Translations under genes and position numbers: made by a program
Shown here: positions 1 to 22,058 of the stretch, one piece after another
Numbering within the stretch: the stretch's first letter is position 1
How the letters are laid out: each line of letters begins with the position of its first letter
Origin: a virus
IMG/VR virus record: IMGVR_UViG_3300042868_005483
Span: 1 to 22,058 of that record
Reading direction: 5' to 3' (one strand)
Length of the DNA: 22,058 bases
The notes under the pieces: model-generated
Told to the model about the DNA's origin: nothing
The model's input: the letters and a program-made list of their open reading frames with translations, nothing else
The model's database searches: none

Positions 1-1822
1 ATGGTTCAATAATTGCTTGCATTTCTTTTGATATGTAAGAACCTATTGTTTTGATGTGATTATCCATATAAGAAACATCATAAGTTTTACCTTGTATTTT
101 TTCTATTTCGTGGATAATATCTTTGTAATCATCAACCAATACCATTGCCTCTTTTAATTGTGATGGTGATGCTTCATTGTCTTTTATAACATCATCTTCA
201 ATCTTGAAGATAGAATCAGCAACAACCGCTGCTGACCTAATCATACCGATTGTATCATCATTATTTGGATATGATATTAACTCCTTAAATGTTGCCTGTG
301 CTCCAGGACATATTTGGAAATACTTTGTTCTATAACCATAAACATCAAGGTTGATTTCATTTTCAGCAAACTCATCCAAACAAGGACACATAAACTGAAC
401 CCCAACTTTACCTAATGAGTTGATTACATCTTCATTATTATCGTAGTGTTTAACTACCTTAAGGTCTCTAATCTTTTGTAATTTGGCTCTGTTAGAACCT
501 GTGGCAAATACCTTACTACGAGGTATTCCAAGTTCATCAGCAATTGGATACATACGCTCTTTATTTGCTCTTGCTGAAATGATATAAACATCACTACCTG
601 ATTGTAATTCATATAAAGCAAGTCCCCTACCTCTTGGAGTATTCAAGGTATCATCATAGTCAAAACTAACTACTTGTCCTACAGCAAAATCTTCATCTGC
701 GGTTGAATTACAAATTGCGTATGCTTGGTCAGGTTGTTTACCTTCATTCTTGATAAGATATTCAGTACATCTGTTGATATAATCACTCCTATCTTCACCA
801 GGATTTCTTTTAACAAATAATACAGGTTCAACTAACATATCAGGATTAGAACAATCAACCCCACCATTTCTTGCTGGGTCTTTACACTTGGTTTTATCAC
901 CAGTTGGATAGTTTACATAATCAGGTAGTGTTTCTGGCTCATATTCCATATTCTCCTGTTTCTTTGGGTGTTTTGTTGGTAATAAGTCATAATCACTATC
1001 ATACTTTGGATTTTCAGGTCTACCATTTTTAACCAAGTATAAAAACGCATTTACACGAGCAAGAGCCCATTGTTCTGCTGACCTAACTGCGGGTGAGTGT
1101 GATGTGTTGTATGCTCCAACTCCCCTTTGATAAACTGATTTTAACATACCAAGATTTACACCATAACCAAGTTTGTCTTTGTATCTTTCGTTGAAATCAT
1201 CACTCTTGTTTTGTAATGTTTCTTCAACTCTTTTGGATACCTCTGCTCCCCTTGTTGTTGAGGCATCACCTTTGGCACTACCTTCACCTTTTGGGTTCTT
1301 ATTTGGTGTGTCTGACTTTGGTGCTTTTGGACTTTCTTTAACCCCACCTCTTTCACCTATTTCAGCCATCTTTTGTTCTGACTTTGTTATTACTCTTTCC
1401 AAGTAATTCATAACATCATCATAAGTTGATGGTTCAAATCCCCAAGAAGCAAGTGCAAGATACCCACAACCTTCTTCAAATGACTTGGAACTATCCCAAT
1501 CGGTCTTATGTCTTGAACCAAATGCCTTCATTCTTTTCAATGTTTCCAAAGATAAAGGTTCTTTATTAGCGAGTTGGTTAAGACGAGATTTTCCAACAGG
1601 TGTTAAACAACTACCATATCCATTTTCATCAACCCATTTTCTTGCTCTAATAGCAGTATCAGTGATATATTGTGGATAATCTTTTATTGAATCAACAAAT
1701 TCTTGTTTTGTAAAGTAGATAAAGTTCTGTTCTATTGCTGGCATCTCTACCAAGCCAATTCCAGTAACCTTTGTATCCCCTGTGATTGTTCCTTCTATAT
1801 CAAGGTCTATTATTCTAATCAT
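1..1822 (-). CDS. Multidomain phage structural/maturation protein with XkdF-like protease region and HAD-like domain (partial)
   Basis: An open frame runs from ATG 1822 off the left edge: 607 complete codons and no stop. An in-frame TAG lies two codons upstream, so this start is firm. Residues 18-37 (VTGIGLVEMPAIEQNFIYF region) resemble the N-terminus of XkdF-like prohead proteases or scaffold proteins. Residues 55-130 match a module I know from phage maturation proteins (SCLTPVG, LKRMKAFGSRH, EEGCGYLALASWG). Residues 150-215 are a polar linker. Residues 218-265 hold a conserved YQRGVGAY...QWALARVNAFL motif. Residues 363-372 contain the short DQAYAICNS motif. Residues 385-475 look like a HAD phosphatase: DYDDT (D388, D390), YIISARA (S416) and HYDNNEDV (D461). 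A Cys-containing segment follows (FMCPCLDEF, YFQICPGA). It lies 20 bp after the tape measure. Domain calls are by recognition; whether the protease or phosphatase is active is unknown. Confidence 0.75.
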   Translation of the reverse strand, partial: MIRIIDLDIEGTITGDTKVTGIGLVEMPAIEQNFIYFTKQEFVDSIKDYPQYITDTAIRARKWVDENGYGSCLTPVGKSRLNQLANKEPLSLETLKRMKAFGSRHKTDWDSSKSFEEGCGYLALASWGFEPSTYDDVMNYLERVITKSEQKMAEIGERGGVKESPKAPKSDTPNKNPKGEGSAKGDASTTRGAEVSKRVEETLQNKSDDFNERYKDKLGYGVNLGMLKSVYQRGVGAYNTSHSPAVRSAEQWALARVNAFLYLVKNGRPENPKYDSDYDLLPTKHPKKQENMEYEPETLPDYVNYPTGDKTKCKDPARNGGVDCSNPDMLVEPVLFVKRNPGEDRSDYINRCTEYLIKNEGKQPDQAYAICNSTADEDFAVGQVVSFDYDDTLNTPRGRGLALYELQSGSDVYIISARANKERMYPIADELGIPRSKVFATGSNRAKLQKIRDLKVVKHYDNNEDVINSLGKVGVQFMCPCLDEFAENEINLDVYGYRTKYFQICPGAQATFKELISYPNNDDTIGMIRSAAVVADSIFKIEDDVIKDNEASPSQLKEAMVLVDDYKDIIHEIEKIQGKTYDVSYMDNHIKTIGSYISKEMQAIIEP

Positions 1823-7959: not shown

Positions 7960-9471
7960 TTAACATCCCCCACCTACGGTACATATCACAATAATTGGTG
8001 ATGCGTTGTATATTATTCCTCCGTATTGGTAATCACCGAAGAACAACACAGATAAACCAGCATCGGTGTATATGTTCTCACCAACATCACCTGGTGATAA
8101 ACCTGGTGCCATATAAAGGGTTATTGGTGTTGCACTATCACAGAAACATTCCCCACCCACACAGGTCGCAAAACACTCATTAACTAATTGTGGTACTCCT
8201 TCTGGTGTTGGAGTCGGAGTTCTTGTAAGTGTTGGAGTCGGAGTTGGTGATAATCCTTGAGTTTGGGTAGGTGTTAAAGTCGGAGTTGGAGTTGTTGTAG
8301 ATGTTGGAGTCGGAGTTGGTTGTTCACAATCACCAGTGTTTGTTACAATCAATGCACCCTCAATGATGAAATCTCCCAAATTACATATACAAACATAAAA
8401 CTCTTGATTTGGATTAACAACAAGTGTTCTTTGAATGTTATTACAATCCGCATAATACAAAATACCCTGTGATTCCAATGATGCGTTGAATACACTATAT
8501 TCTTTACAAGCACATACTGTAGGAGTTGCTGACGGAGTAGGTGTCGGTGTTGGGGTTGGTTGTATTGGACTGGTTGTTCCTGTGAATTTACCAAACAACT
8601 GAACTGTATATTGAACAGCGTTTGATGGTGTTATTCCTGATAAGTTTCTTGGACCTGCGGCAACATATAAAGTATTGTAGTTTGTGTTACCTGATGGTAT
8701 AATTAAAGGTAATTCTTGATATACTTGATTACAACTTGTTCTTGGACCCCCACCATTTGTTGTGATGTTGTCTGATGTTACAGCGGTAATAACCAAGCCT
8801 TGGTCATCATAAAAAGTCCATTCGGCATAATATGGTTCTGATATGGTTGATGAATCCAAATAGTAGTTTGTAAAGGCGAGTGTGTAATACTCATCTTGTT
8901 CTAAATCACGGGTTCTTGGTGAGTTGGTTAAGAACAAACCAGATGTGGTTGGGTCAATTGTTGTTGGTGCTCCTGATAAAACAAATGGGGACATATTAAA
9001 GTCCTGTTGTGTTGCTCTACCATTTACCCCCATAGTTGATTGAAATACCTTCTTTAATCCACTTGGAATGCTTGGTGGACCTTGTGTATTACCTGAACCT
9101 GTAAAACCTGTTACAGCCCCCAATTCTGTTGATGAGTATTCATAACCAAAATAAACCTCATAGTTTATTGTCTCTGCTGAATAAGGTGCGGCAAATGGGA
9201 ATGTTTGGTGTTGGTATATTTTTGTTGTGTTCCATAAACCAAATGGGTTATTCTCACAATATGTCTTTAATATTCTTGATGTATCAATAACCCCAAGTCC
9301 ATAAGGGTTTGGTGTTGCTTTTCCCTGAAATACATTATTACCATTTACATACAAATCATAAGTGTATCTAAATCTAAAATTGTTGATTGTATCTGCAGAG
9401 ATTGTATAAAACAACCCATCTGTTAGTACGGGTTGAAATGTTGGTGGTTGGTGTAATATCGCTATACTCAT
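7960..9471 (-). CDS. Tail protein with Pro-Thr linkers and two Cys-rich appended domains
   Basis: 503 aa from ATG 9471, just after the stop at 9473. Residues 1-300 form a beta-rich structural domain (Tyr/Thr/Asn-rich, no enzyme motif). A Pro-Thr linker (about 303-318) leads to a roughly 65-aa domain with five Cys (319-383: CAC, ADCNN, VCICN, GDC). A second, longer linker (384-424) leads to a C-terminal Cys-rich domain (432-503) that ends in GGGC. Such linkers usually make stiff, protease-resistant spacers that display domains on a surface. I infer that the N-terminal part is built into the tail and the two small domains project outward, perhaps for host or polysaccharide binding. A neck gene (10030-10869) carries a similar linker plus Cys domain. 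The binding role is untested. Confidence 0.6.
   Translation of the reverse strand: MSIAILHQPPTFQPVLTDGLFYTISADTINNFRFRYTYDLYVNGNNVFQGKATPNPYGLGVIDTSRILKTYCENNPFGLWNTTKIYQHQTFPFAAPYSAETINYEVYFGYEYSSTELGAVTGFTGSGNTQGPPSIPSGLKKVFQSTMGVNGRATQQDFNMSPFVLSGAPTTIDPTTSGLFLTNSPRTRDLEQDEYYTLAFTNYYLDSSTISEPYYAEWTFYDDQGLVITAVTSDNITTNGGGPRTSCNQVYQELPLIIPSGNTNYNTLYVAAGPRNLSGITPSNAVQYTVQLFGKFTGTTSPIQPTPTPTPTPSATPTVCACKEYSVFNASLESQGILYYADCNNIQRTLVVNPNQEFYVCICNLGDFIIEGALIVTNTGDCEQPTPTPTSTTTPTPTLTPTQTQGLSPTPTPTLTRTPTPTPEGVPQLVNECFATCVGGECFCDSATPITLYMAPGLSPGDVGENIYTDAGLSVLFFGDYQYGGIIYNASPIIVICTVGGGC
8203..8325 (-). repeat. Imperfect GGAGTC/GGAGTTGG tandem repeat encoding Pro-Thr linker 2
   Basis: Low-complexity coding repeat. 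The plus-strand pattern GTTGGAGTCGGAGTTG recurs several times and reads as Pro-Thr dipeptides on the minus strand (residues about 384-424 of the 503-aa protein). A shorter related tract at 8525-8573 encodes linker 1. Length variation by slippage is plausible; the reading frame is kept. Confidence 0.7.
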
Positions 9472-9472
9472 T

Positions 9473-10030
9473 TTATCTTAATTTTTCTGTTAATTTGTCT
9501 ATCTGAAATTGCATAAATCCTGCGATATACTCACCATACTTATCTACAAGTTCTTTCTGTATGGAGTTATAGGCTTTCATAATAAAATCATTTCCACCAT
9601 AACCATACATACCAATAGACCTTCTAATCAAAAATACTAAAGTTTTTCTTGGAATAAACCTACCTTTAGCATCTCTTATACCTTTTATTCCTTGTTTTTG
9701 TCTAACCCATTTATCAATAGGTCCTGTTGGTGGATATCTACCAGGTCTTCTACCTTCTGAAACAAATAATCCTTCCAACGGCATCTCAAGTATTAGTTCA
9801 GGTATTCCTGTTTGTGGGTCTTCTTGAAACTTTACATTAAGATTTTTGTATAAGTTCCCTGAAGCATTGGGTGTTGATATTGGGGTTGGATATCTACCTG
9901 AAACAGGTTTTGGTAATCCTGGTTTACCTGGACTACCATAGGTTGTTGAAGGTCTTGGTATTTCAAGTTGTCTTCTTAACGCACCTTTTAATATTCCTGA
10001 TATCTCATTTAGTATACCTTGTTCTATCAT
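9473..10030 (-). CDS. Head-tail joining / HK97 gp10-like tail completion protein
   Basis: 185 aa from ATG 10030, which overlaps the upstream stop by one base (TAATG), a mark of translational coupling. The central part (GRRPGRYPPTGPIDKWVRQK, then FLIRRSIGMYGYGGNDFI) follows the HK97 gp10-like pattern: a basic 'RPG-PP-I-W' segment followed by a 'RSIG-YG' loop and a C-terminal helix. Members of this family are neck or minor-tail proteins that join the tail to the filled head. The N-terminal 60 residues are Pro/Gly-rich and look disordered. Its neighbour at 10030-10869 has a tail-terminator-like N-terminus, which fits a neck/tail-completion pair. Family assignment is by motif recognition. Confidence 0.6.
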   Translation of the reverse strand: MIEQGILNEISGILKGALRRQLEIPRPSTTYGSPGKPGLPKPVSGRYPTPISTPNASGNLYKNLNVKFQEDPQTGIPELILEMPLEGLFVSEGRRPGRYPPTGPIDKWVRQKQGIKGIRDAKGRFIPRKTLVFLIRRSIGMYGYGGNDFIMKAYNSIQKELVDKYGEYIAGFMQFQIDKLTEKLR

Positions 10031-10869
10031 TATGGTAATATCAAGTTAATTGGACATATACAAGTAGAAGCACTATATGATAATACATCAAAACTTGATA
10101 CACACTCTCCCGGTTGTAATACAGGATTTAGATTAAAATTATGGGTATGGTCGTTATTTTGTATTGTCTCTGTGCCATAAAAAATTGTTCCCATATCACC
10201 ATAAGCAACACCTGAAATTACATAATCACATAAAGCATTTGTTGGATTACTAAATCCACTATCCTCCCATATTTTTAATGAAAAATTAGAACACCCACCT
10301 AAATCTACCTCTAAATATTGTGTTGTAATAGGACAAGTATTAGTAGGAGTAATTGTGGGTGTAGGAGTTATTGTTGGTGTTGGTGATGGTTCTGGTTCAT
10401 AGTAATCACATGCGTTAATATCAGTGAACACCACAAAACTACAATCAAGTGCTACCCCACCAACAAAGTCATTAAATCTCTCTTGAAATGGAACTGCATT
10501 GGTTGGTAGTACAATATCCATCTTATCATACAAATCAGGGTTTTGATTCATACCCCTTTTGATAAAGGACATGAACCTTCTGGCTTGGATATCCATATCA
10601 CTAACCACATCAACCTCATTTGATAAGTCATCATTTATTCTATCAGCAAAGATTAAGGACATATTGTAGGTTACAATGTTTTCCTCATAAGCGATGTTCT
10701 GTGGGGTTACAAATACAAATGGGTAGGTTGGGGTCATACCTGTATTGTCTGTGTTACCAAACTCCACGATATTACCAAACCCAAATGAGTTTAACCCAAT
10801 ACCTACTTGTGATTGTTGGTATTGTTTTATAAGTGATACGATTTTATGTATTGAAACATATTCTTCCAT
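10030..10869 (-). CDS. Probable tail terminator/neck protein with appended Pro-Thr linker and Cys domain
   Basis: 279 aa from ATG 10869. Residues 1-155 look like a tail-terminator or neck fold: an N-terminal helix, then beta-rich segments (YPFVFVTPQNIAYEEN, TYNMSLIFADRINDD) and a helix with 'DIQARRFMSFIKRG'. Residues 160-178 are a Pro-Thr linker (PSPTPTITPTPTITPT), and residues 179-279 form a separate domain with six Cys residues and a GDMGTIFYGTE segment. Tail terminators are normally about 130-150 aa, so the appended domain is an extra; it may be displayed at the head-tail junction or be a late decoration. It overlaps the next gene by 1 bp. The core call rests on context and pattern; the added domain's function is unknown. 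Confidence 0.5.
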   Translation of the reverse strand: MEEYVSIHKIVSLIKQYQQSQVGIGLNSFGFGNIVEFGNTDNTGMTPTYPFVFVTPQNIAYEENIVTYNMSLIFADRINDDLSNEVDVVSDMDIQARRFMSFIKRGMNQNPDLYDKMDIVLPTNAVPFQERFNDFVGGVALDCSFVVFTDINACDYYEPEPSPTPTITPTPTITPTNTCPITTQYLEVDLGGCSNFSLKIWEDSGFSNPTNALCDYVISGVAYGDMGTIFYGTETIQNNDHTHNFNLNPVLQPGECVSSFDVLSYSASTCICPINLILP

Positions 10870-10905: not shown

Positions 10906-11208
10906 TTATTTTTTATATTGCTTTTCCAACTTTTTCATTTCCTCTTTTTGTTTCTGTATACGCTCTTTCATAATTGATGCTGTATTGAGACACAACAATA
11001 AAGGCAACTCATCTATTTGGTTGATTTTGGTGATGTCTTCTCCTGCGAGGTTGAGAGTGATACTAAAATAGTATCTAAAGGCAGCCTCTTTTTTACCCAT
11101 TTTGGGAGTATCTCCCACCCCTTCATTATCATCTGGTTCATTTTGTTCGTCCACATCAAAGAACTCTTTATATTGGTTGTATATATTGTTGCGGTTAGAA
11201 AAAAAAAA
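10906..11208 (-). CDS. -1 frame extension of the chaperone-like gene (no start of its own)
   Basis: This is the open frame that continues after the T10 tract, one base back from the frame of the 11714 gene. The region upstream of the tract has no ATG in this frame; the only possible start is TTG 11226. The 97 residues after the Phe run look like real protein: acidic DVDEQNEPDDNEG, then KEAAFRYYFSITLNLAGEDI, then a Lys/Glu-rich C-terminal helix. By contrast the 0-frame tail after the tract reads like non-coding shadow. I infer that the full-length product is about 269 aa, residues 1-172 of the upstream frame joined to this segment, made by -1 slippage or because one T is missing from the assembled sequence. 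Confidence 0.6.
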   Translation of the reverse strand, partial: FFFSNRNNIYNQYKEFFDVDEQNEPDDNEGVGDTPKMGKKEAAFRYYFSITLNLAGEDITKINQIDELPLLLCLNTASIMKERIQKQKEEMKKLEKQYKK

Positions 11209-11714
11209 CCGCTGGCACCAAACCAATACTTGATTGGTAGTTGTCTAAACTCATATGCTCTATCCTCAATTTCATCAGCCTTATATGGAGCAATCTTATA
11301 CTTACCATTTTTCTTTTCCACAATAGGTCTATATAATATCGCCATAATCAAATGGATATTGTTTTGTATGTCCTCTGATGAGAATACCTCCATGTCCATC
11401 CAAGCACCCCAAGCAAGTTTACTCCAATCATTCTCCAATCCATACTCAACTCCATTATGGGTGAAAACATTATATAGTTCGTCTTTAAGGGAACTTTCGG
11501 TCATTTGGGACATTAGGTATGACTGAACAAACTCCATTTGATTTAATGGTAAATCCTTCAGTTCATTTACAGGAACATTTAATAGTAAGGACAATAAGTC
11601 AGGTGGGGATGTCTTATACATCTCCTCTTTGTTATGTATCCTTTGGAATTGTTCTATTGTAATTTCAGGTTGAACTTGAATCACCCTCTCATTTAATTGT
11701 ATTTCTATGCTCAT
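11013..11714 (-). CDS. Tail-assembly-chaperone-like protein, 0-frame product
   Basis: 233 aa from ATG 11714, overlapping the large terminase stop by 4 bp (ATGA). The N-terminal 50 residues (ITIEQFQRIHNKEE, LLSLLLNVPVNELKDLPL) and the AILYRPI...YKIAPY...RAYEFRQLP block near residues 120-160 match a conserved small protein of Bacteroidota phages that I associate with tail-assembly-chaperone-like genes. Codons 169-172 lie on a T10 tract (11199-11208), after which the 0 frame gives 61 poorly protein-like residues ending at TAG 11013. In gpG/gpGT systems the short form is abundant and the frameshifted form is rare, and both are needed for tail assembly. Here the gene sits after the terminase, not next to the tape measure, which is atypical, so the chaperone role is tentative. 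Confidence 0.55.
   Translation of the reverse strand: MSIEIQLNERVIQVQPEITIEQFQRIHNKEEMYKTSPPDLLSLLLNVPVNELKDLPLNQMEFVQSYLMSQMTESSLKDELYNVFTHNGVEYGLENDWSKLAWGAWMDMEVFSSEDIQNNIHLIMAILYRPIVEKKNGKYKIAPYKADEIEDRAYEFRQLPIKYWFGASGFFFLTATIYTTNIKSSLMWTNKMNQMIMKGWEILPKWVKKRLPLDTILVSLSTSQEKTSPKSTK
11199..11208 (-). other. T10 homopolymer slippery site
   Basis: The minus strand reads GCGGT followed by TTTTTTTTT and CTAACC, ten T in all counting the T of GGT. The 0 frame is GGT-TTT-TTT-TTT-CTA; a -1 shift enters TCT-AAC and opens the extension ending at 10906. A run this long supports ribosomal or transcriptional slippage, but it is also a classic place for a one-base sequencing or assembly error (11 T would fuse the frames outright). 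Confidence 0.6.
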
Positions 11715-12871
11715 ATAATTGTTATTTTTGTTTTTGGTCTATCTAAAAATTGTACTATCCCATATTTCAAGGCATCAATTAAGTGGTCTTTACCTATGGT
11801 ATTATTTGTTATTGCACCTGTTCTGTCCTTCTTAAACTTGAAATTAGTAAACTCACTAATTAAATCCACACTCTCACTATGTAAGTATATCTTAAATTGT
11901 TTCATCTTTTGGATTCCGTATAAGATACTGGTCTTGTTCACTGGTCTAACATTTATCCCCAACCTTTTTAATTCTTCTATAGATTTTGGTTCTGCGGAAT
12001 CAGCAACCACATTTACATTTCGGTCTATACCAATCTCTTTTAATTTGTATGCCAAATCTTCATTGGTTAGTCCAAGTTGATATATCAGTTGTTTAACATA
12101 TAAGTTCTTTCCATCTACATTGATTTCCACAACAGCACACTCATCATTTGAGAATCCAAAATCTATTGAGTAGTATTTTTCTTTGATGTTTCTTGGTAGT
12201 TCATCATATAACTCTGGTTGGGTAAATATCTTTTCTCTTGGTTCAACAATAAGACCCTCTGAATAAATCTTTGCCATGTCAGGGTCAATGTCTATAAGTT
12301 CCTTGATTGCCTGAATTGTTCTTTTATCCAAAAAACTATTCATTCTCCAAGTTGAATGTAACATACACCCATTTTCTTTTCCTTCATATTCTAACCCCCA
12401 CCAATCAATGGGTATTTCAGGGTTATAAAGTGATAAGATGTATCTTGAACATCTAATATCCATTTGGATAAATGCGTTCTTGTCTATTGTGTTTACCTCA
12501 TCAACTAAAATGATGTCTGACTTGAAACCTTTTAGTTTACCTGTGGAATCATCTAATCCAATAAATCTAACAACTGAACCATTTTCAAAGGTATAAACAA
12601 ACTCTTGTTTTTGGAATACACCTTTATCCCACAGGTCTATAGATTCCATTACCATCTTAAAGTCAGGTAGAATTGTATGTCTTAAAGACACTTGTGTTTC
12701 ACGGGCTATGGTTATACTTGTCTTGGGGGTTTTGAGTGCTTCTAACACGATGTATTGTAACGCAGAGATGGTTTTTGATGAACGAGATGAACCCCTCAAA
12801 AAGATATATCTCTTATCTTGTTCCACTGCGTTGTGGATATGTTCCCATACCTCCGTTACTTGGAATTTCAT
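11711..12871 (-). CDS. terL: Terminase large subunit (ATPase/nuclease)
   Basis: 386 aa from ATG 12871, overlapping the upstream gene by 4 bp. This is the motor that pumps DNA into proheads and cuts the concatemer. The ATPase domain shows Walker A RGSSRSSKT (26-34), Walker B IILVDE (120-125) and an LYNPEIP segment near 150 that fits the coupling region. The nuclease domain shows SIDFG (D237), VVADSAEPKSI (D291) and KDHLIDALKYG (D362, D366), the acidic residues expected for a two-metal RNase-H-like nuclease. At 386 residues it is at the short end for the family but has every key motif. Most phages place terS directly before terL; here the two are 3.4 kb apart, separated by methyltransferase genes and the small cassette genes. 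It is translationally coupled on both sides. Confidence 0.92.
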   Translation of the reverse strand: MKFQVTEVWEHIHNAVEQDKRYIFLRGSSRSSKTISALQYIVLEALKTPKTSITIARETQVSLRHTILPDFKMVMESIDLWDKGVFQKQEFVYTFENGSVVRFIGLDDSTGKLKGFKSDIILVDEVNTIDKNAFIQMDIRCSRYILSLYNPEIPIDWWGLEYEGKENGCMLHSTWRMNSFLDKRTIQAIKELIDIDPDMAKIYSEGLIVEPREKIFTQPELYDELPRNIKEKYYSIDFGFSNDECAVVEINVDGKNLYVKQLIYQLGLTNEDLAYKLKEIGIDRNVNVVADSAEPKSIEELKRLGINVRPVNKTSILYGIQKMKQFKIYLHSESVDLISEFTNFKFKKDRTGAITNNTIGKDHLIDALKYGIVQFLDRPKTKITII

Positions 12872-13293
12872 AAACTATCTATAATGTTATCAAACCATTT
12901 ATCAAGGTCGTAGTACCTACTATTTGTTCCTTTATCACTAAAGAATTGTCCTTTAATTTGTTTAACAATATCATTATCAGTTGTTCCAACATATTCTTTT
13001 CTATGTCCCCCAAGATAGTTTCCCTTGTCTTCTCGTGTCTTGTTATATTGAGTTATAACACCATCATTTAACATATCATCACATACCAGTAGGTTTGGTG
13101 TGAATCTACCCCTCACATCAATCTCATTTAATGAACTTTGGAACTTGGTAATAGAACCCTCACTAATCTGTCCTTTTTCAGGCATCTTATAGTTTCCTTC
13201 CAATCTGTATTTTGGATTAGTGGCGGGGTTCTGTGTATCCTCAAATGGTATTCTACAATCATCCAACCACATTATACCTTTACTGTATTTCAT
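12868..13293 (-). CDS. Detached methyltransferase TRD-like cassette 3
   Basis: 141 aa from ATG 13293, overlapping cassette 2 by 14 bp and terL by 4 bp. It has three blocks shared with the two upstream genes: block A MKYSKGIMWLDDCRIPF (1-17), block B RGRFTPNLLVCDDMLNDG (about 61-78) and block C KGTNSRYYDLDKWFDNII (about 121-138). The segments between them (18-60 and 79-120) show no evident similarity to those of the other cassettes. In my knowledge of phage beta-class N-methyltransferases the same A-B-C order (xxWLDDCRIP, GRFPANLL, SRYFDLDxW) is found inside the enzyme between catalytic halves, where target recognition is expected. No catalytic motif (DPPY or FxGxG) is present here, so on its own it cannot methylate. 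A specificity role is inferred. Confidence 0.65.
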   Translation of the reverse strand: MKYSKGIMWLDDCRIPFEDTQNPATNPKYRLEGNYKMPEKGQISEGSITKFQSSLNEIDVRGRFTPNLLVCDDMLNDGVITQYNKTREDKGNYLGGHRKEYVGTTDNDIVKQIKGQFFSDKGTNSRYYDLDKWFDNIIDSL

Positions 13294-13335
13294 CTATAAT
13301 CTTATCAAACCATTTATCCAAGTCGTAGTATCTAC
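13247..13335 (-). repeat. Junction repeat, copy 2 (end of cassette 2 / start of cassette 3)
   Basis: 89 bp spanning the block C codons of cassette 2, the stop/start overlap, and block A of cassette 3. By eye it differs from the copy at 13626-13714 at five positions, with no gaps. Confidence 0.85.
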
Positions 13336-13672
13336 TATTTGTTCCTTTATCTCCAAAGTAAAAGTTATTCTTTACTGAACCTCCACCAAAGTTTCCACCC
13401 CCATATTGCTTTGTTGTGTCTTTTAGATTGTCTTGAACTTTACTAACACTACCATCATTTAACATATCATCACATACGAGTAGGTTGGGTGTGAATCTAC
13501 CTTGTTGATTTTGTTTTGTATCAAATATAGTTTTACTCTCATTATAGGAGTTCCTACCATATATTTTTACATTAGTCATATCTCCAAATGGAACAGCATT
13601 ACCTTTATCTGTTTCATCAACAAAAGGTATTCTACAATCGTCCAACCACATTATACCCTTACTATATTTCAT
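13280..13672 (-). CDS. Detached methyltransferase TRD-like cassette 2
   Basis: 130 aa from ATG 13672, overlapping cassette 1 by 11 bp. Block A MKYSKGIMWLDDCRIPF (1-17) is identical in protein sequence to cassette 3. Block B GRFTPNLLVCDDMLNDG (about 58-74) and block C KGTNSRYYDLDKWFDKIIDEI (about 109-129) follow. The first variable segment is Asn/Lys-rich; the second is Gly/Asn-rich (GGGNFGGGSVKNNF). No methyltransferase catalytic motif is present. Codon use and composition match its neighbours. The boundary DNA with cassette 3 is nearly identical to that with cassette 1, so the genes probably arose by tandem duplication or unequal recombination, with the inner segments kept variable. The function is inferred as for cassette 3. 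Confidence 0.65.
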   Translation of the reverse strand: MKYSKGIMWLDDCRIPFVDETDKGNAVPFGDMTNVKIYGRNSYNESKTIFDTKQNQQGRFTPNLLVCDDMLNDGSVSKVQDNLKDTTKQYGGGNFGGGSVKNNFYFGDKGTNSRYYDLDKWFDKIIDEIQ

Positions 13673-13714
13673 CTATTATCTTATCAAACCATTTATCCAA
13701 GTCGTAGTACCTAC
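13626..13714 (-). repeat. Junction repeat, copy 1 (end of cassette 1 / start of cassette 2)
   Basis: Direct-repeat partner of 13247-13335, 379 bp apart. Half-copies flank the array: a block A half at about 13978-14024 and a block C half at about 12871-12925. Block B gives a third repeated stretch at about 13056-13110, 13450-13501 and 13820-13877. Confidence 0.85.
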
Positions 13715-14024
13715 TTGATGAACCACTATCACCAATTCCTACTCCGTGTGCTTGGGGACTATTACCAAATAAAGAACCAGTATGTTCTGTTGGTTTATAG
13801 GTTCTTTTACTTTGTTTTGTTATAACACCATCATTTAACATATCATCACATACCAGTAGGTTGGGGGTAAATCTACCTCTGTTAGATGGTTCTAATATTC
13901 TATTTTTTATATTCCAACCAGTTTCACTTTGTTTAGTTTCTTTATAATCCGTTGCGACCATAATCTCTTCATTATGAGGTATCCTACAATCATCCAACCA
14001 CATTACACCTTTGGAGTATCTCAT
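13662..14024 (-). CDS. Detached methyltransferase TRD-like cassette 1
   Basis: 120 aa from ATG 14024, overlapping the methyltransferase stop by 4 bp (ATGA), so translation of the two is likely coupled. Block A is slightly diverged (MRYSKGVMWLDDCRIPH). Block B GRFTPNLLVCDDMLNDG (about 50-66) and block C SSSRYYDLDKWFDKIIDEI (about 102-120) are conserved. It has the shortest inner segments of the three (about 18-49 and 67-101) and these show no evident similarity to the others. As the first gene behind the catalytic gene, it is the best candidate for its direct partner. Alternatives are that it is a remnant of an old split methyltransferase or a structural protein that has borrowed the fold; the clean ORF and conserved blocks argue against simple decay. 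Confidence 0.65.
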   Translation of the reverse strand: MRYSKGVMWLDDCRIPHNEEIMVATDYKETKQSETGWNIKNRILEPSNRGRFTPNLLVCDDMLNDGVITKQSKRTYKPTEHTGSLFGNSPQAHGVGIGDSGSSSRYYDLDKWFDKIIDEI

Positions 14025-15034
14025 TTCTTATCCTTGAAGAACTTAATGAGTTGCTCTCTATCAACAGATAATCTTTCCTCACAGATATCAAAGTATTCTT
14101 TTTCCCTCTCCACTCCGATAAAATTGCGGTTTAACAATTTTGACGCAATCCCTGTCGTTCCGCTGCCCAAGAACGGGTCAATTACCCAGTCCCCTTCCCT
14201 TGTGAATAAGGTGATGATGTAGGACATCAACTTAACAGGTTTGGTTGTTGGGTGTATGTTCTTTGATGTTGTCGGTCTGTTCTTTTGTGGAACATTGAAC
14301 TTTTCTTGTCCTTCATCTCTTTGGGGTTTTTTCTTTTCCTCACCAGTTAAACCAAAGTCCTTTTCCTTCTTTGCTGGTTTTGGAACTTGAATAAATGGAT
14401 AAGTCATTTTGATATTATCAGGTAATGCCTCAAAGTTTAATACATTATCAATATAACTTTTTGACCCGTGTGGTTTCATACCAATAATGATATGTTCTAC
14501 TGCTGGTTTTGGTTGGAAACCTAATTTACTACCTTCATATTTTTTGGCGAGGTCTGTTGAAGGTTCTGTAATATCAGCGGCGTTTCCGTGTGGTTTATCA
14601 TCAACAAATGCGTTATTTATATCTGTGTTGAACTCATAAGCATATCTACCATCAGTTCTTTTTCCAACAACCTCACGCTCTGCACCCATCCTTTTATCTA
14701 TCATCTTACTTGTGTCTGATGCTTTTGGAAACCCCGAATGGTACGCCCAATATATTGGACTGAACGACATATCAAACCCTGCATCTTCCAAGTCCTTAAT
14801 CATACGATACAACACATCACTACGAGGACTACTCATCACCGCAATAAATGAACCAGGTTTTAATACCCTATAACACTCTTCCCAAATGTCTTTTGGAGGT
14901 AAAACTTTATCCCACTCTTTACCCATAAATCCTATTGCGTACGGTGGGTCTGTGGCTAATAAGTCCACACTATTATCTTTGAGTTGTTTAAGTACCTCCG
15001 CACTATCTCCATTGTATAAATGTTGTTCTATCAT
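14021..15034 (-). CDS. Beta-class DNA N-methyltransferase lacking its internal A-B-C module
   Basis: 337 aa from ATG 15034 (4-bp overlap with the upstream methyltransferase). It transfers methyl from S-adenosylmethionine to an exocyclic amine in DNA. Motif IV DPPY (29-32) comes first and the SAM-binding motif I DPFLGSGTTG (286-295) last, the beta-class order; HPTTKPVKLM (261-270) is the usual motif X region. Residues 118-190 (AEREVVGKR, QPKPAVEHIIIGMKP) match the common phage enzyme. In that enzyme, the text between 'NVLK' and 'FPFLIVPKASKSEK' normally holds a module with WLDDCRIP, GRFPANLL and SRYFDLD. Here 'DNVLN' (196-200) runs after about 11 residues into 'YPFIQVPKPAKKEKDFGL' (212-229), so the module is missing. 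Three separate genes downstream encode it. DPPY favours m6A, but the base is not proven. Confidence 0.88.
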   Translation of the reverse strand: MIEQHLYNGDSAEVLKQLKDNSVDLLATDPPYAIGFMGKEWDKVLPPKDIWEECYRVLKPGSFIAVMSSPRSDVLYRMIKDLEDAGFDMSFSPIYWAYHSGFPKASDTSKMIDKRMGAEREVVGKRTDGRYAYEFNTDINNAFVDDKPHGNAADITEPSTDLAKKYEGSKLGFQPKPAVEHIIIGMKPHGSKSYIDNVLNFEALPDNIKMTYPFIQVPKPAKKEKDFGLTGEEKKKPQRDEGQEKFNVPQKNRPTTSKNIHPTTKPVKLMSYIITLFTREGDWVIDPFLGSGTTGIASKLLNRNFIGVEREKEYFDICEERLSVDREQLIKFFKDKK

Positions 15035-20219: not shown

Positions 20220-20870
20220 TTATCGGTTGGGGGAGTTTGACGCTCCTCCATACCATGTTGGAAATCCATTACCAGCACACAACGGACCCATCATATTAAA
20301 GTTTCCGTTCCAACCCCTACCTGAAGCATAGTAACCAGCATTTGGTAAAGTCATTGATGACTTAAATGGTGTATCAGTTTCTGGTGGTAATTCACCATTA
20401 TTTAAGTTTCCACTGAAATATTCAGGGTACCAACCTGAACGGAATAAAAGGTGTCTACGAAGCAAGTTATCTTGGAACTCGGCTTGGTTTTTAGCATTGT
20501 TCTTGAGATATTGTAATGTTTTTAAGTCAACTGCTGAACCTTGTTCGTTTCTGTTCTGAACCAAACCAACATTCATAAACTTTACCCAAAAGTTATCAAG
20601 ACAGATTGTATAGGCATAAGCAATAAGTGCTGGTTGAATAAAGTTATTCATCAACTCCTTATATTTAATCAAAGACACATCAGTATTGATTGTATTATCA
20701 TCAATAATTTTTAACAAATACTCGTATAGGTTCGTTCCCAATGATTCTTGAATTTGGATTGTTTGAGCCATATAAATCCCAAATCTTAATTCACTTGAAT
20801 CAACATTGTCTGTAATAGGTGTGTTGTCCTTTAACTTTTGTTCTGATATGAATAATACATTGTATAACAT
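20220..20870 (-). CDS. Head-tail connector (DUF6712-like)
   Basis: 216 aa from ATG 20870, overlapping the portal stop by one base (TAATG), so the pair is probably translationally coupled. The N-terminal half (LFISEQKLKDNTPITDNVDSS, GIYMAQTIQIQESLGTNLYEYLLKII, YKELMNNFIQPALIAYAYTICLDN) matches the pattern I know as DUF6712, a Bacteroidota phage head-completion or connector protein of the gp6/gp15 adaptor type that docks beneath the portal. The central motif HLLFRSGWYPEYF is followed by a Gly/Asn-rich C-terminal stretch of about 60 residues with many aromatics, likely disordered. No enzymatic motif. Assignment is by recognition and by its place after the portal. Confidence 0.65.
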   Translation of the reverse strand: MLYNVLFISEQKLKDNTPITDNVDSSELRFGIYMAQTIQIQESLGTNLYEYLLKIIDDNTINTDVSLIKYKELMNNFIQPALIAYAYTICLDNFWVKFMNVGLVQNRNEQGSAVDLKTLQYLKNNAKNQAEFQDNLLRRHLLFRSGWYPEYFSGNLNNGELPPETDTPFKSSMTLPNAGYYASGRGWNGNFNMMGPLCAGNGFPTWYGGASNSPNR

Positions 20871-21943
20871 TAGATGATGTTGTTTTGTGTTATGGTTAAG
20901 TCAATCTCTTGACCTGGATATATCAATTCTATAATAGGTTTTAACTCTCTATTCAAGAATTTCTGTAATGGATAAATACTTGTTGATAAAAATAACTTGA
21001 ACCCTGTGTCTAATTGTTCTGCTGATGAACTAAAACCAGTTCTTTGTGGTAAACCAATAATTGAAGCGTCGGGGATATTATGACCACATAAGATTTGATG
21101 TTGTACCAACTCAAATATTGATGAGAAATAACCATCTTCAACATTTGTTTGTATTTGTGTAATATCAGGTTTTTGACCTTCTTCACCATAAGATATAATT
21201 ACTCTGTTTGCGTTATCCGCCCCCATGTATCTATCTTCAATTTTTCTTAAGATGCTATTTTGTTCATATTCTGAATCAGGGGCTGGTTGATTAAAGTGAA
21301 CCCACATACCCATAGAACAACCATTGATGATGTTAGCAAGGTTGTATACAGTAATCTCGTGGTTTAACTTAATATCATTGATACAAGCAAGATATGATGG
21401 AACACCATAAAACTCACTTTGAGGTCCATAAGTTCTAATGTGTATAATTTGTCTGTTAGTAAAGTTCATTGGGTCAAACTCACTAAACTCAATAATGGAA
21501 CTACCCCTTCTCCAATTAGCCCAATCTCTTGAATAAAGGTATTTTGTGGCTGGCTCACCTGGATGTTCAGGTTTATGAACTCTCATATACTTTGATGGAA
21601 TAACATGGAAACCAGCAAGTCCTTCTTTTCTGTCTTTTCTCCAAACAACCTCCAAGAACAAATTACCTGTTACAATCAACTCAAAGAACATCTGTTTAGC
21701 AACATCATTGATGTATTGTTTTGAGTTAATCTTGTAGTCGTTAATATACCCTGAACCAACAGAGTTATCTACTCTTGCTCTAATGGCAGAGTTGTGGATT
21801 GGTGATGCGTCTAATAACATATATAACTCATTTGGAAATAAGTTATCCACACCCCAAGATACAAAAGGTTGTCCCTTTGTTATCACCTCTTGAAATGATG
21901 TTATGGTATTTACACCAAAGTTTAGTTTTTCAATATTTATCAT
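20870..21943 (-). CDS. Portal protein
   Basis: 357 aa from ATG 21943, which overlaps the upstream stop (ATGATAA). Portals form the 12-subunit ring at one capsid vertex through which DNA is packaged and the tail is attached. Matching segments are FVSWGVDNLFPNELYMLL (30-47), SPIHNSAIRARVDNSVGSGY (51-70), FFELIVTGNLFLEVVWRKD (86-104), GFHVIPSKYMRV (111-122), HIRTYGPQSEFYGVPSYLA (about 167-185), and IYPLQKFLNRELKPIIELI near the end. This is the PBSX/HK97-type portal pattern, including the FELIVTGNLF and 'YGVPSYL' elements. At 357 residues it is somewhat short. It is 7 kb upstream of terL in the direction of transcription, whereas terS-terL usually precede the portal directly. Confidence 0.85.
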   Translation of the reverse strand: MINIEKLNFGVNTITSFQEVITKGQPFVSWGVDNLFPNELYMLLDASPIHNSAIRARVDNSVGSGYINDYKINSKQYINDVAKQMFFELIVTGNLFLEVVWRKDRKEGLAGFHVIPSKYMRVHKPEHPGEPATKYLYSRDWANWRRGSSIIEFSEFDPMNFTNRQIIHIRTYGPQSEFYGVPSYLACINDIKLNHEITVYNLANIINGCSMGMWVHFNQPAPDSEYEQNSILRKIEDRYMGADNANRVIISYGEEGQKPDITQIQTNVEDGYFSSIFELVQHQILCGHNIPDASIIGLPQRTGFSSSAEQLDTGFKLFLSTSIYPLQKFLNRELKPIIELIYPGQEIDLTITQNNII

Positions 21944-22058
21944 CCGTTGTATATTTTATAAATATCACTTGTTCCAGAGTAAGTGATAGGTTGTGTTGAT
22001 GCTGAATAGTTTACTTGAGCAATGGTCTCATAAACTACATCATAGGCAAGATTGGGGT
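21940..22058 (-). CDS. C-terminal end of an unknown protein (partial)
   Basis: Reading in from the right edge, 38 codons end at TGA 21942-21940, which overlaps the portal start (ATGA). The peptide (PNLAYDVVYETIAQ..., ending in SDIYKIYNG) is not recognised. The tight coupling suggests a head or packaging gene directly before the portal. The rest lies outside the window. Confidence 0.6.
   Translation of the reverse strand, partial: PNLAYDVVYETIAQVNYSASTQPITYSGTSDIYKIYNG

Follow-up and report, generated by a model that had tools for sequence, protein, structure and literature searches.

The 607-codon reading frame at one end of the analyzed DNA is almost certainly the 5' part of a gene for an XkdF-type prohead protease that is split by exchangeable modules, one of them resembling phosphatases of the HAD superfamily. 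The window, meaning the whole stretch of DNA that was analyzed, is 22,058 bases long and constitutes the entire virus record. Within it, the frame runs on the minus strand from position 1822 to position 2, beginning with an ATG, continuing without interruption, and remaining open at the contig end; since the record stops there, the 3' part cannot be read from it. The fuller reading, in which the HAD module is carried as cargo of the phage head, is about evenly balanced. A sequence-only reading of this DNA had described a maturation-type protein of at least 607 residues with an internal HAD-like domain. Its length in a single frame is borne out, on a strand that the reading did not name, as is its general character; the description was incomplete in that the protein is a prohead protease of the XkdF type and the HAD domain is one of at least 12 exchangeable modules.

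The divided prohead protease

A scan of IMG/VR identified 61 loci that code for relatives, of which L003 (1009 amino acids) served as the full-length reference. Close relatives continue the frame to about 750 to 1095 amino acids and thereby supply the remaining 3' part. The C terminus of L003 is the body of an XkdF prohead protease (Peptidase_S78_2, PF14550, E 2e-10); full-length relatives match above the cut-off as well, with example E values from 2e-10 to 4.6e-18, and the match was found in 83 of 88 diverse members. The window ends before this body. In alignments of the relatives (A5 and A7), the catalytic His and Ser of the body never vary. Because the relatives end in an XkdF/Peptidase_S78_2 body, what had been noticed as an XkdF-like start is the N-terminal strand (amino acids 1 to 38) of the protease itself, cut off from the rest by an insert. 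Module-free proteases of 200 to 209 amino acids have strand and body contiguous (alignment A7), and the protease of the window gene is therefore split by the insert, which in relatives comprises up to about 800 residues of shuffled modules. A search by sequence found no relative of the protease with a solved structure. The nearest cultured protease relatives, at 42 to 43% identity, are those of Nonlabens phages P12024S/L, which makes flavobacteria the likely hosts. The features of the window gene and its surroundings are as follows.

2..1822, minus strand: capsid-maturation protease gene, 5' part with inserted modules; open frame, continuing into Peptidase_S78_2 in L003, L005, L012, and others
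1709..1822, minus strand: N-terminal strand of the XkdF protease (amino acids 1 to 38), motif VExPAIExxFIyF; contiguous with the body in module-free proteases
1370..1705, minus strand: SRH/EEGCG helical module (amino acids 40 to 151); phrog_2859, E 6.8e-12; allele unlike that of the otherwise near-identical L003
959..1369, minus strand: DUF5824 module (amino acids 152 to 288), with YQRGVGAY; PF19141, E 3.6e-7; cleanly missing in L022 and L034
701..820, minus strand: two-cysteine helical hairpin 'RC..L...QAxAIC' (amino acids 335 to 374); module HMM
389..676, minus strand: cap-less HAD phosphatase module (amino acids 383 to 478); alignment A1, conservation, fold, median dN/dS 0.24
2..355, minus strand: 'MIRSAAVVADS' helical module (amino acids 490 to 607), complete save the last residues; module HMM; cleanly missing in L022, L010, and L034
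1843..4767, minus strand: tape measure protein gene, conserved upstream neighbor in the gene order of relatives
20870..21943, minus strand: portal protein gene (PF04860, E 2.3e-14), here without a HAD and without the C-terminal G domain

Both of the modules named in the sequence-only reading by their SRH/EEGCG and YQRGVGAY motifs are present. The second is Pfam DUF5824, which matches above the cut-off and is the sole Pfam match in the 607-residue frame; a literature search found no paper on it. Two pieces had been passed over, a hairpin ('RC..L..EG...QA.AIC') before the HAD and the 'MIRSAAVVADS' helical module after it. The hairpin is the usual N-terminal neighbor of the HAD, and in the model of L003 its region forms helices at 343 to 358 and 362 to 376. 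Module HMMs were built for nine and later for thirteen pieces, and architectures were counted in 143 distinct complete open reading frames (ORFs) holding both strand and body. These ORFs displayed 39 architectures: 30 had no cargo module, 20 had the hairpin and HAD only, and 17 had one module C-terminal to the protease, while the large forms contained up to eight inserted modules in varying order. The modules of relatives include the named domains DUF5824, DUF3721, and DUF6884 (L195) as well as the unnamed SRH/EEGCG (phrog_2859), QAxAIC hairpin, MIRSAAVVADS helical, Cys-rich, and G modules. The G module matches the C-terminal part of portal family phrog_33693 and presumably resembles MuF, as judged by its Cys...NCxHxW pattern.

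Phages that are near identical (DNA mostly 90 to 100% identical) differ by one or two modules, gained or lost precisely and in frame. The window and L003 carry different SRH alleles, with 60 to 75% identity there and 87 to 98% in the flanks; L009 and L015 have different DUF5824 alleles. The DUF5824 and MIRSAA modules present in L005 are missing from L034, L022 is without both of these modules of the window, and L010 is missing MIRSAA. Median dN/dS values of 0.13 to 0.46 across all pieces, including 0.24 for the HAD, indicate that the modules are under purifying selection. Dozens of distinct relatives read through the modules in one frame, with no conserved stop or frameshift in between; the isolated frame breaks, seen in single contigs only (L009, L035, and L043), look like sequencing errors. 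Every member with a HAD of the window type is an uncultured contig, as would be expected had a metagenome assembly chimera or a frameshift artifact created the arrangement. That explanation has a negligible probability, given architectures common to dozens of independent samples, conserved gene order, and purifying selection at the codon level.

Met codons occur at or near module starts, at amino acids 152, 292, and 329 of the 607-residue frame (MAEIGERGG, MEYEPETLPD), the second of them preceded by AGGAG; relics of free genes and internal starts are suggested as alternative explanations.

Other carriers and other passengers were encountered among the relatives. L195 (1606 to 3828, plus strand) includes DUF6884 (PF21818, E 3.9e-34, one A6 member), whose likely place is the unassigned segment of this protein and which is likely to be another enzyme-like cargo of the protease insert. 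In Rhizobium phage RHph_TM16 (L278), the XkdF protein is annotated as "DNA methyltransferase/prohead protease," and BFVD entry A0A6J5KKZ6, a "Zeta toxin domain" protein, aligns with the XkdF-plus-HAD model; further enzymes may ride on the XkdF protease in these two cases. The "major capsid protein" of Roseobacter phage CRP-821 (L063, 4340 to 7264), of about 974 amino acids, consists of SRH, DUF5824, a Peptidase_S78 protease, and a capsid protein, and is thus a fusion in which the SRH and DUF5824 modules are mounted on a different head-protein chassis.

Gene order and neighboring genes

The position of the gene after the tape measure rather than beside the portal had been taken as an oddity, which proves to be an artifact of where the contig was cut. 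The gene order of relatives is TerL, tail chaperone, tail genes, tape measure, protease, scaffold-like gene, gene resembling that for the major capsid protein (MCP), further genes, and portal. A protease just upstream of the scaffold and MCP is ordinary, and an odd gene order was rejected. Contig L020 overlaps both ends of the window (positions 1 to 825 and 20225 to 22058) and therefore spans what the window lacks, a stretch of about 7.9 kb that separates the cut gene from the portal gene and contains the scaffold-like and MCP-like genes. The whole genome would measure about 30 kb.

Several features elsewhere in the window were also recorded. Three tandem, diverged small ORFs of 141, 130, and 120 amino acids lie at 12868 to 14024 on the minus strand, with the motifs SKGxMWLDDCRIP...GRFTPNLLVCDDMLNDG...SRYYDLDKWFD, adjoining an N6/N4 methyltransferase gene at 14021 to 15034. 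IMG/VR contained 55 loci with one to five stand-alone copies of these ORFs, mostly beside such a methyltransferase and never fused to it. They presumably resemble the region of complete beta-class methyltransferases that recognizes the target, and are possibly swappable specificity subunits. At 10906 to 11714 (minus strand), a tail-assembly-chaperone-like frame of 233 amino acids overlaps an ORF in the -1 frame, with in-phase slippery candidates at 11094 (AAAAAAG) and in a T-run at 11204 to 11208; a programmed -1 frameshift is probable here. Two tail-region proteins, at 7960 to 9471 and 10030 to 10869 (minus strand), contain Pro-Thr repeat tracts (TPTPTPTPSATPT).

The HAD module and its carriers

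The HAD-like domain described in the sequence-only reading is present at amino acids 383 to 478, with the motif residues D388-x-D390-x-T, S416-A-R418, K447, and D461...D465. These agree with the defining features of the HAD superfamily, namely, DxDxT/V in motif I, Ser/Thr in motif II, Lys in motif III, and an acidic motif IV, and the ordered pattern appeared in 1 of 20,000 shuffles of the window protein. The module has relatives in at least 568 viral stretches. In a conservation set of 82 unique sequences, the nucleophile Asp was retained in 77 of 77 complete cases, the acid/base Asp in 74 of 77, the motif II Ser in 78 of 78, the Lys in 81 of 81, and the motif IV Asp in 81 of 81; since the scan patterns favored motif II and KHYDNN, the DxD counts alone escape this bias. 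No homologue has lost both aspartates. The three exceptions at the acid/base position have His and belong to one subclade of HADs located C-terminal to the protease (L112, L123, L125, and L131), in which the motif II Arg is also replaced by Ala, unlike the closely related L096, which is intact; from its sequence, this subclade appears to be a natural active-site variant.

The predicted fold of the domain (AlphaFold pLDDT of about 85 to 91) is that of a Rossmann-like, cap-less HAD, and the assignment to the HAD fold is hardly in doubt. Among enzymes, HAD phosphatases gave the highest scores. The model aligned with the 3'-phosphatase domain of T4 Pnkp (Z 11.6, rmsd 1.9, 95 residues), with human phosphoserine phosphatase (Z 11.2), and with a class B acid phosphatase (Z 9.7). 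With Z 11.8, universal stress proteins rank level with the HADs, so that the fold alone leaves the function unfixed and the motifs decide. VIA-align with the smaller model was more informative than Foldseek with the 1009-residue model, which returned mostly generic Rossmann folds at E 0.03 or worse. A profile comparison with T4 Pnkp aligned the D-x-D-x-T and S-x-R motifs at low probability (19%). NCBIfam HAD-IIB reached 0.026, under the cut-off, and phrog_8630, annotated as "nucleotidase," matched six members; the HAD_PNKP profile did not match the window-type HAD, no 5'-kinase domain was recognized in the protein, and the HAD profile drew no convincing hit from PDB sequences. A scan of 84,980 genomes of bacteria and archaea, with stricter patterns than those of the viral scan, confirmed no relatives, and none were found in cultured phage records.

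The absence of any match between Pfam HAD models and the module of the window, together with the three C-terminal HADs that have lost the motif II Arg as well as the acid/base Asp, would be expected of a fold recruited for structure or binding and no longer catalytic. This is very unlikely in view of the near-invariance of the catalytic residues and the use of a second HAD type as a substitute in seven proteins. The module is instead probably an active phosphatase, as its conserved motifs suggest. HADs that lack a cap mostly take large molecules, for example nucleic acids or proteins, as their substrates; a nucleic acid or nucleotide substrate is conceivable here, at somewhat less than an even chance, and activity specifically as a 3'-phosphatase is doubtful.

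HADs were found at three sites: inside the protease insert, C-terminal to the protease (L096, L112, L123, L125, and L131), and within the portal protein, between the portal body and the G domain (L088, L091, L106, L113, and others). The portal-borne HAD interrupts phrog_33693, which matches in two stretches (E 3.6e-99), and phages that have it possess a module-free protease (seen in L088, L091, and L113). In a tree of HADs, the forms carried in the portal or at the C terminus fall among the insert-borne ones, with 6 changes of site compared to 17.5 in shuffles, in a short alignment with many weak forks. A distinct, PNKP-like HAD occurs in seven proteins, recognized by HAD_PNKP (1e-4), phrog_415, and polynucleotide-kinase PHROGs. 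The first HAD is present in 62 proteins, the PNKP-like HAD in 7, and the two together in none (P 0.017 if independent, although shared ancestry makes them nonindependent), which suggests that the PNKP-like HAD may replace the window-type one. Some module-rich relatives (L030 and L048) have neither kind, which speaks against the head-cargo reading.

Free-standing HADs of the same family also exist, in L059 (116 amino acids) and as proteins of 120 to 142 amino acids in BFVD. They are what would be expected if the HAD were a late enzyme acting in the cytoplasm of the infected cell, within the late-expressed fusion or as a fragment, and the head genes merely a well-expressed recombination hot spot, and the internal Met codons at module starts could yield separate products. 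Nearly all HADs in the sampled loci sit in capsid-interior proteins, however, and the use of three different head-protein positions is unexpected were location indifferent; a cytoplasmic role is accordingly improbable. In these viruses, head enzymes seem to be shuffled among head proteins. The carriers of the HAD are all capsid-interior proteins, and this is the main argument for cargo.

Proposed head cargo and relation to known systems

Prohead proteases are coassembled inside the procapsid. The modules would thus ride into the head along with their carrier, since the protease, or elsewhere the portal, becomes part of the procapsid; their packaging and injection are inferred from the nature of the carrier proteins. 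The protease's own cleavage may then free the modules, and the phosphatase might act on nucleic acid ends or nucleotides, either while DNA is being packaged into the capsid or once the contents have been ejected into the new host. Possible roles would be the healing, by a Pnkp-like activity, of RNA or DNA 3' ends left by host nucleases and the removal of a nucleotide signal of host defense. Many prohead proteases do not survive maturation, being destroyed or lost, and the inserted modules might accordingly not remain in the virion; retention of the cargo there has an equal chance of being right or wrong.

It is also conceivable that the modules, including the HAD, serve assembly only, filling the procapsid as scaffold-like or binding domains that are lost at maturation, with the phosphatase having its function in assembly. 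Such a role would fit the position of the gene directly upstream of the scaffold-like and MCP-like genes, the presence in the same insert of the conserved structural module G, which is like MuF and the portal C terminus, and the normal action of prohead proteases within the procapsid. Modules are nevertheless gained and lost between near-identical phages, and 30 of the 143 proteases are module-free, so that no single module is required for assembly; the catalytic residues are kept, and the portal-borne HADs are part of a permanent virion component. An assembly-only role is on balance unlikely. The head-cargo reading extends, as a tentative proposal, to an as yet undescribed cargo system in which protease and portal would be interchangeable chassis, modules would be swapped in frame, and the chief of them, a HAD phosphatase directed at nucleic acids, would enter with the genome and counter host nucleases or nucleotide signals.

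The protease resembles other XkdF-type prohead proteases (PF14550) in its strand, its body, its invariant His and Ser, and its site upstream of scaffold-like and MCP-like genes, and it differs in that the body is displaced by an insert of up to about 800 residues or, in some relatives, followed by C-terminal modules. Literature searches on XkdF, and PMC7824862 among the papers, yielded no description of such inserts. In polyvalent proteins (Iyer et al. 2017, PMC5512222), 2 to 15 unrelated domains are combined in one late or head protein of phages and plasmids, with enzyme domains fused to portal or MuF proteins and, in some, a C-terminal assemblin-like peptidase. The proteins described here likewise join several disparate domains in one polypeptide encoded with virion genes, but their cargo lies inside the protease fold, in small (about 30-kb) uncultured phages, and the main text of PMC5512222 does not mention a HAD or other phosphatase. 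The MuF polymorphic toxins (Jamet et al. 2017, PMC5576092) similarly place variable enzymatic cargo on a minor head protein or a portal-linked one. In contrast to those toxins, the gene here is neither next to nor immediately downstream of the portal gene, and no toxin domain was recognized; the MuF domain (PF04233/PF06152) had no match in 88 members at E 0.01, the likeness of the G module being one of motif.

The module shares with the 3'-phosphatase domain of T4 polynucleotide kinase (PseT) the cap-less HAD fold and the D-x-D-x-T and S-x-R motifs, whereas it has no kinase domain, its sequence similarity is weak, and its carrier is a head protein instead of a soluble repair enzyme. The shuffling of modules is like the domain mosaicism of phage proteins, in which protein fragments have recently been exchanged (Smug et al. 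2023, PMC10684548); the words "protease" and "portal" are absent from the main text of that study. The open-access main texts searched make no mention of phosphatase cargo or of a chassis made from a protease insert. The anatomy is a variation on the polyvalent and MuF-type head-protein theme, and the probable phosphatase is among the commonest modules of the split capsid protease.

If the head-cargo reading is true, a capsid-maturation protease would double as a cargo carrier, its insertion point accepting widely differing domains, and would offer a natural route for loading chosen enzymes into phage heads. Many unnamed head domains (SRH, DUF5824, DUF3721, and QAxAIC) would gain a shared context, and the interval between the XkdF strand and body would become a marker for finding more cargo. 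Whether head-borne phosphatases are at work in the earliest phase of infection, before viral genes are expressed, would thereby be made a testable question.
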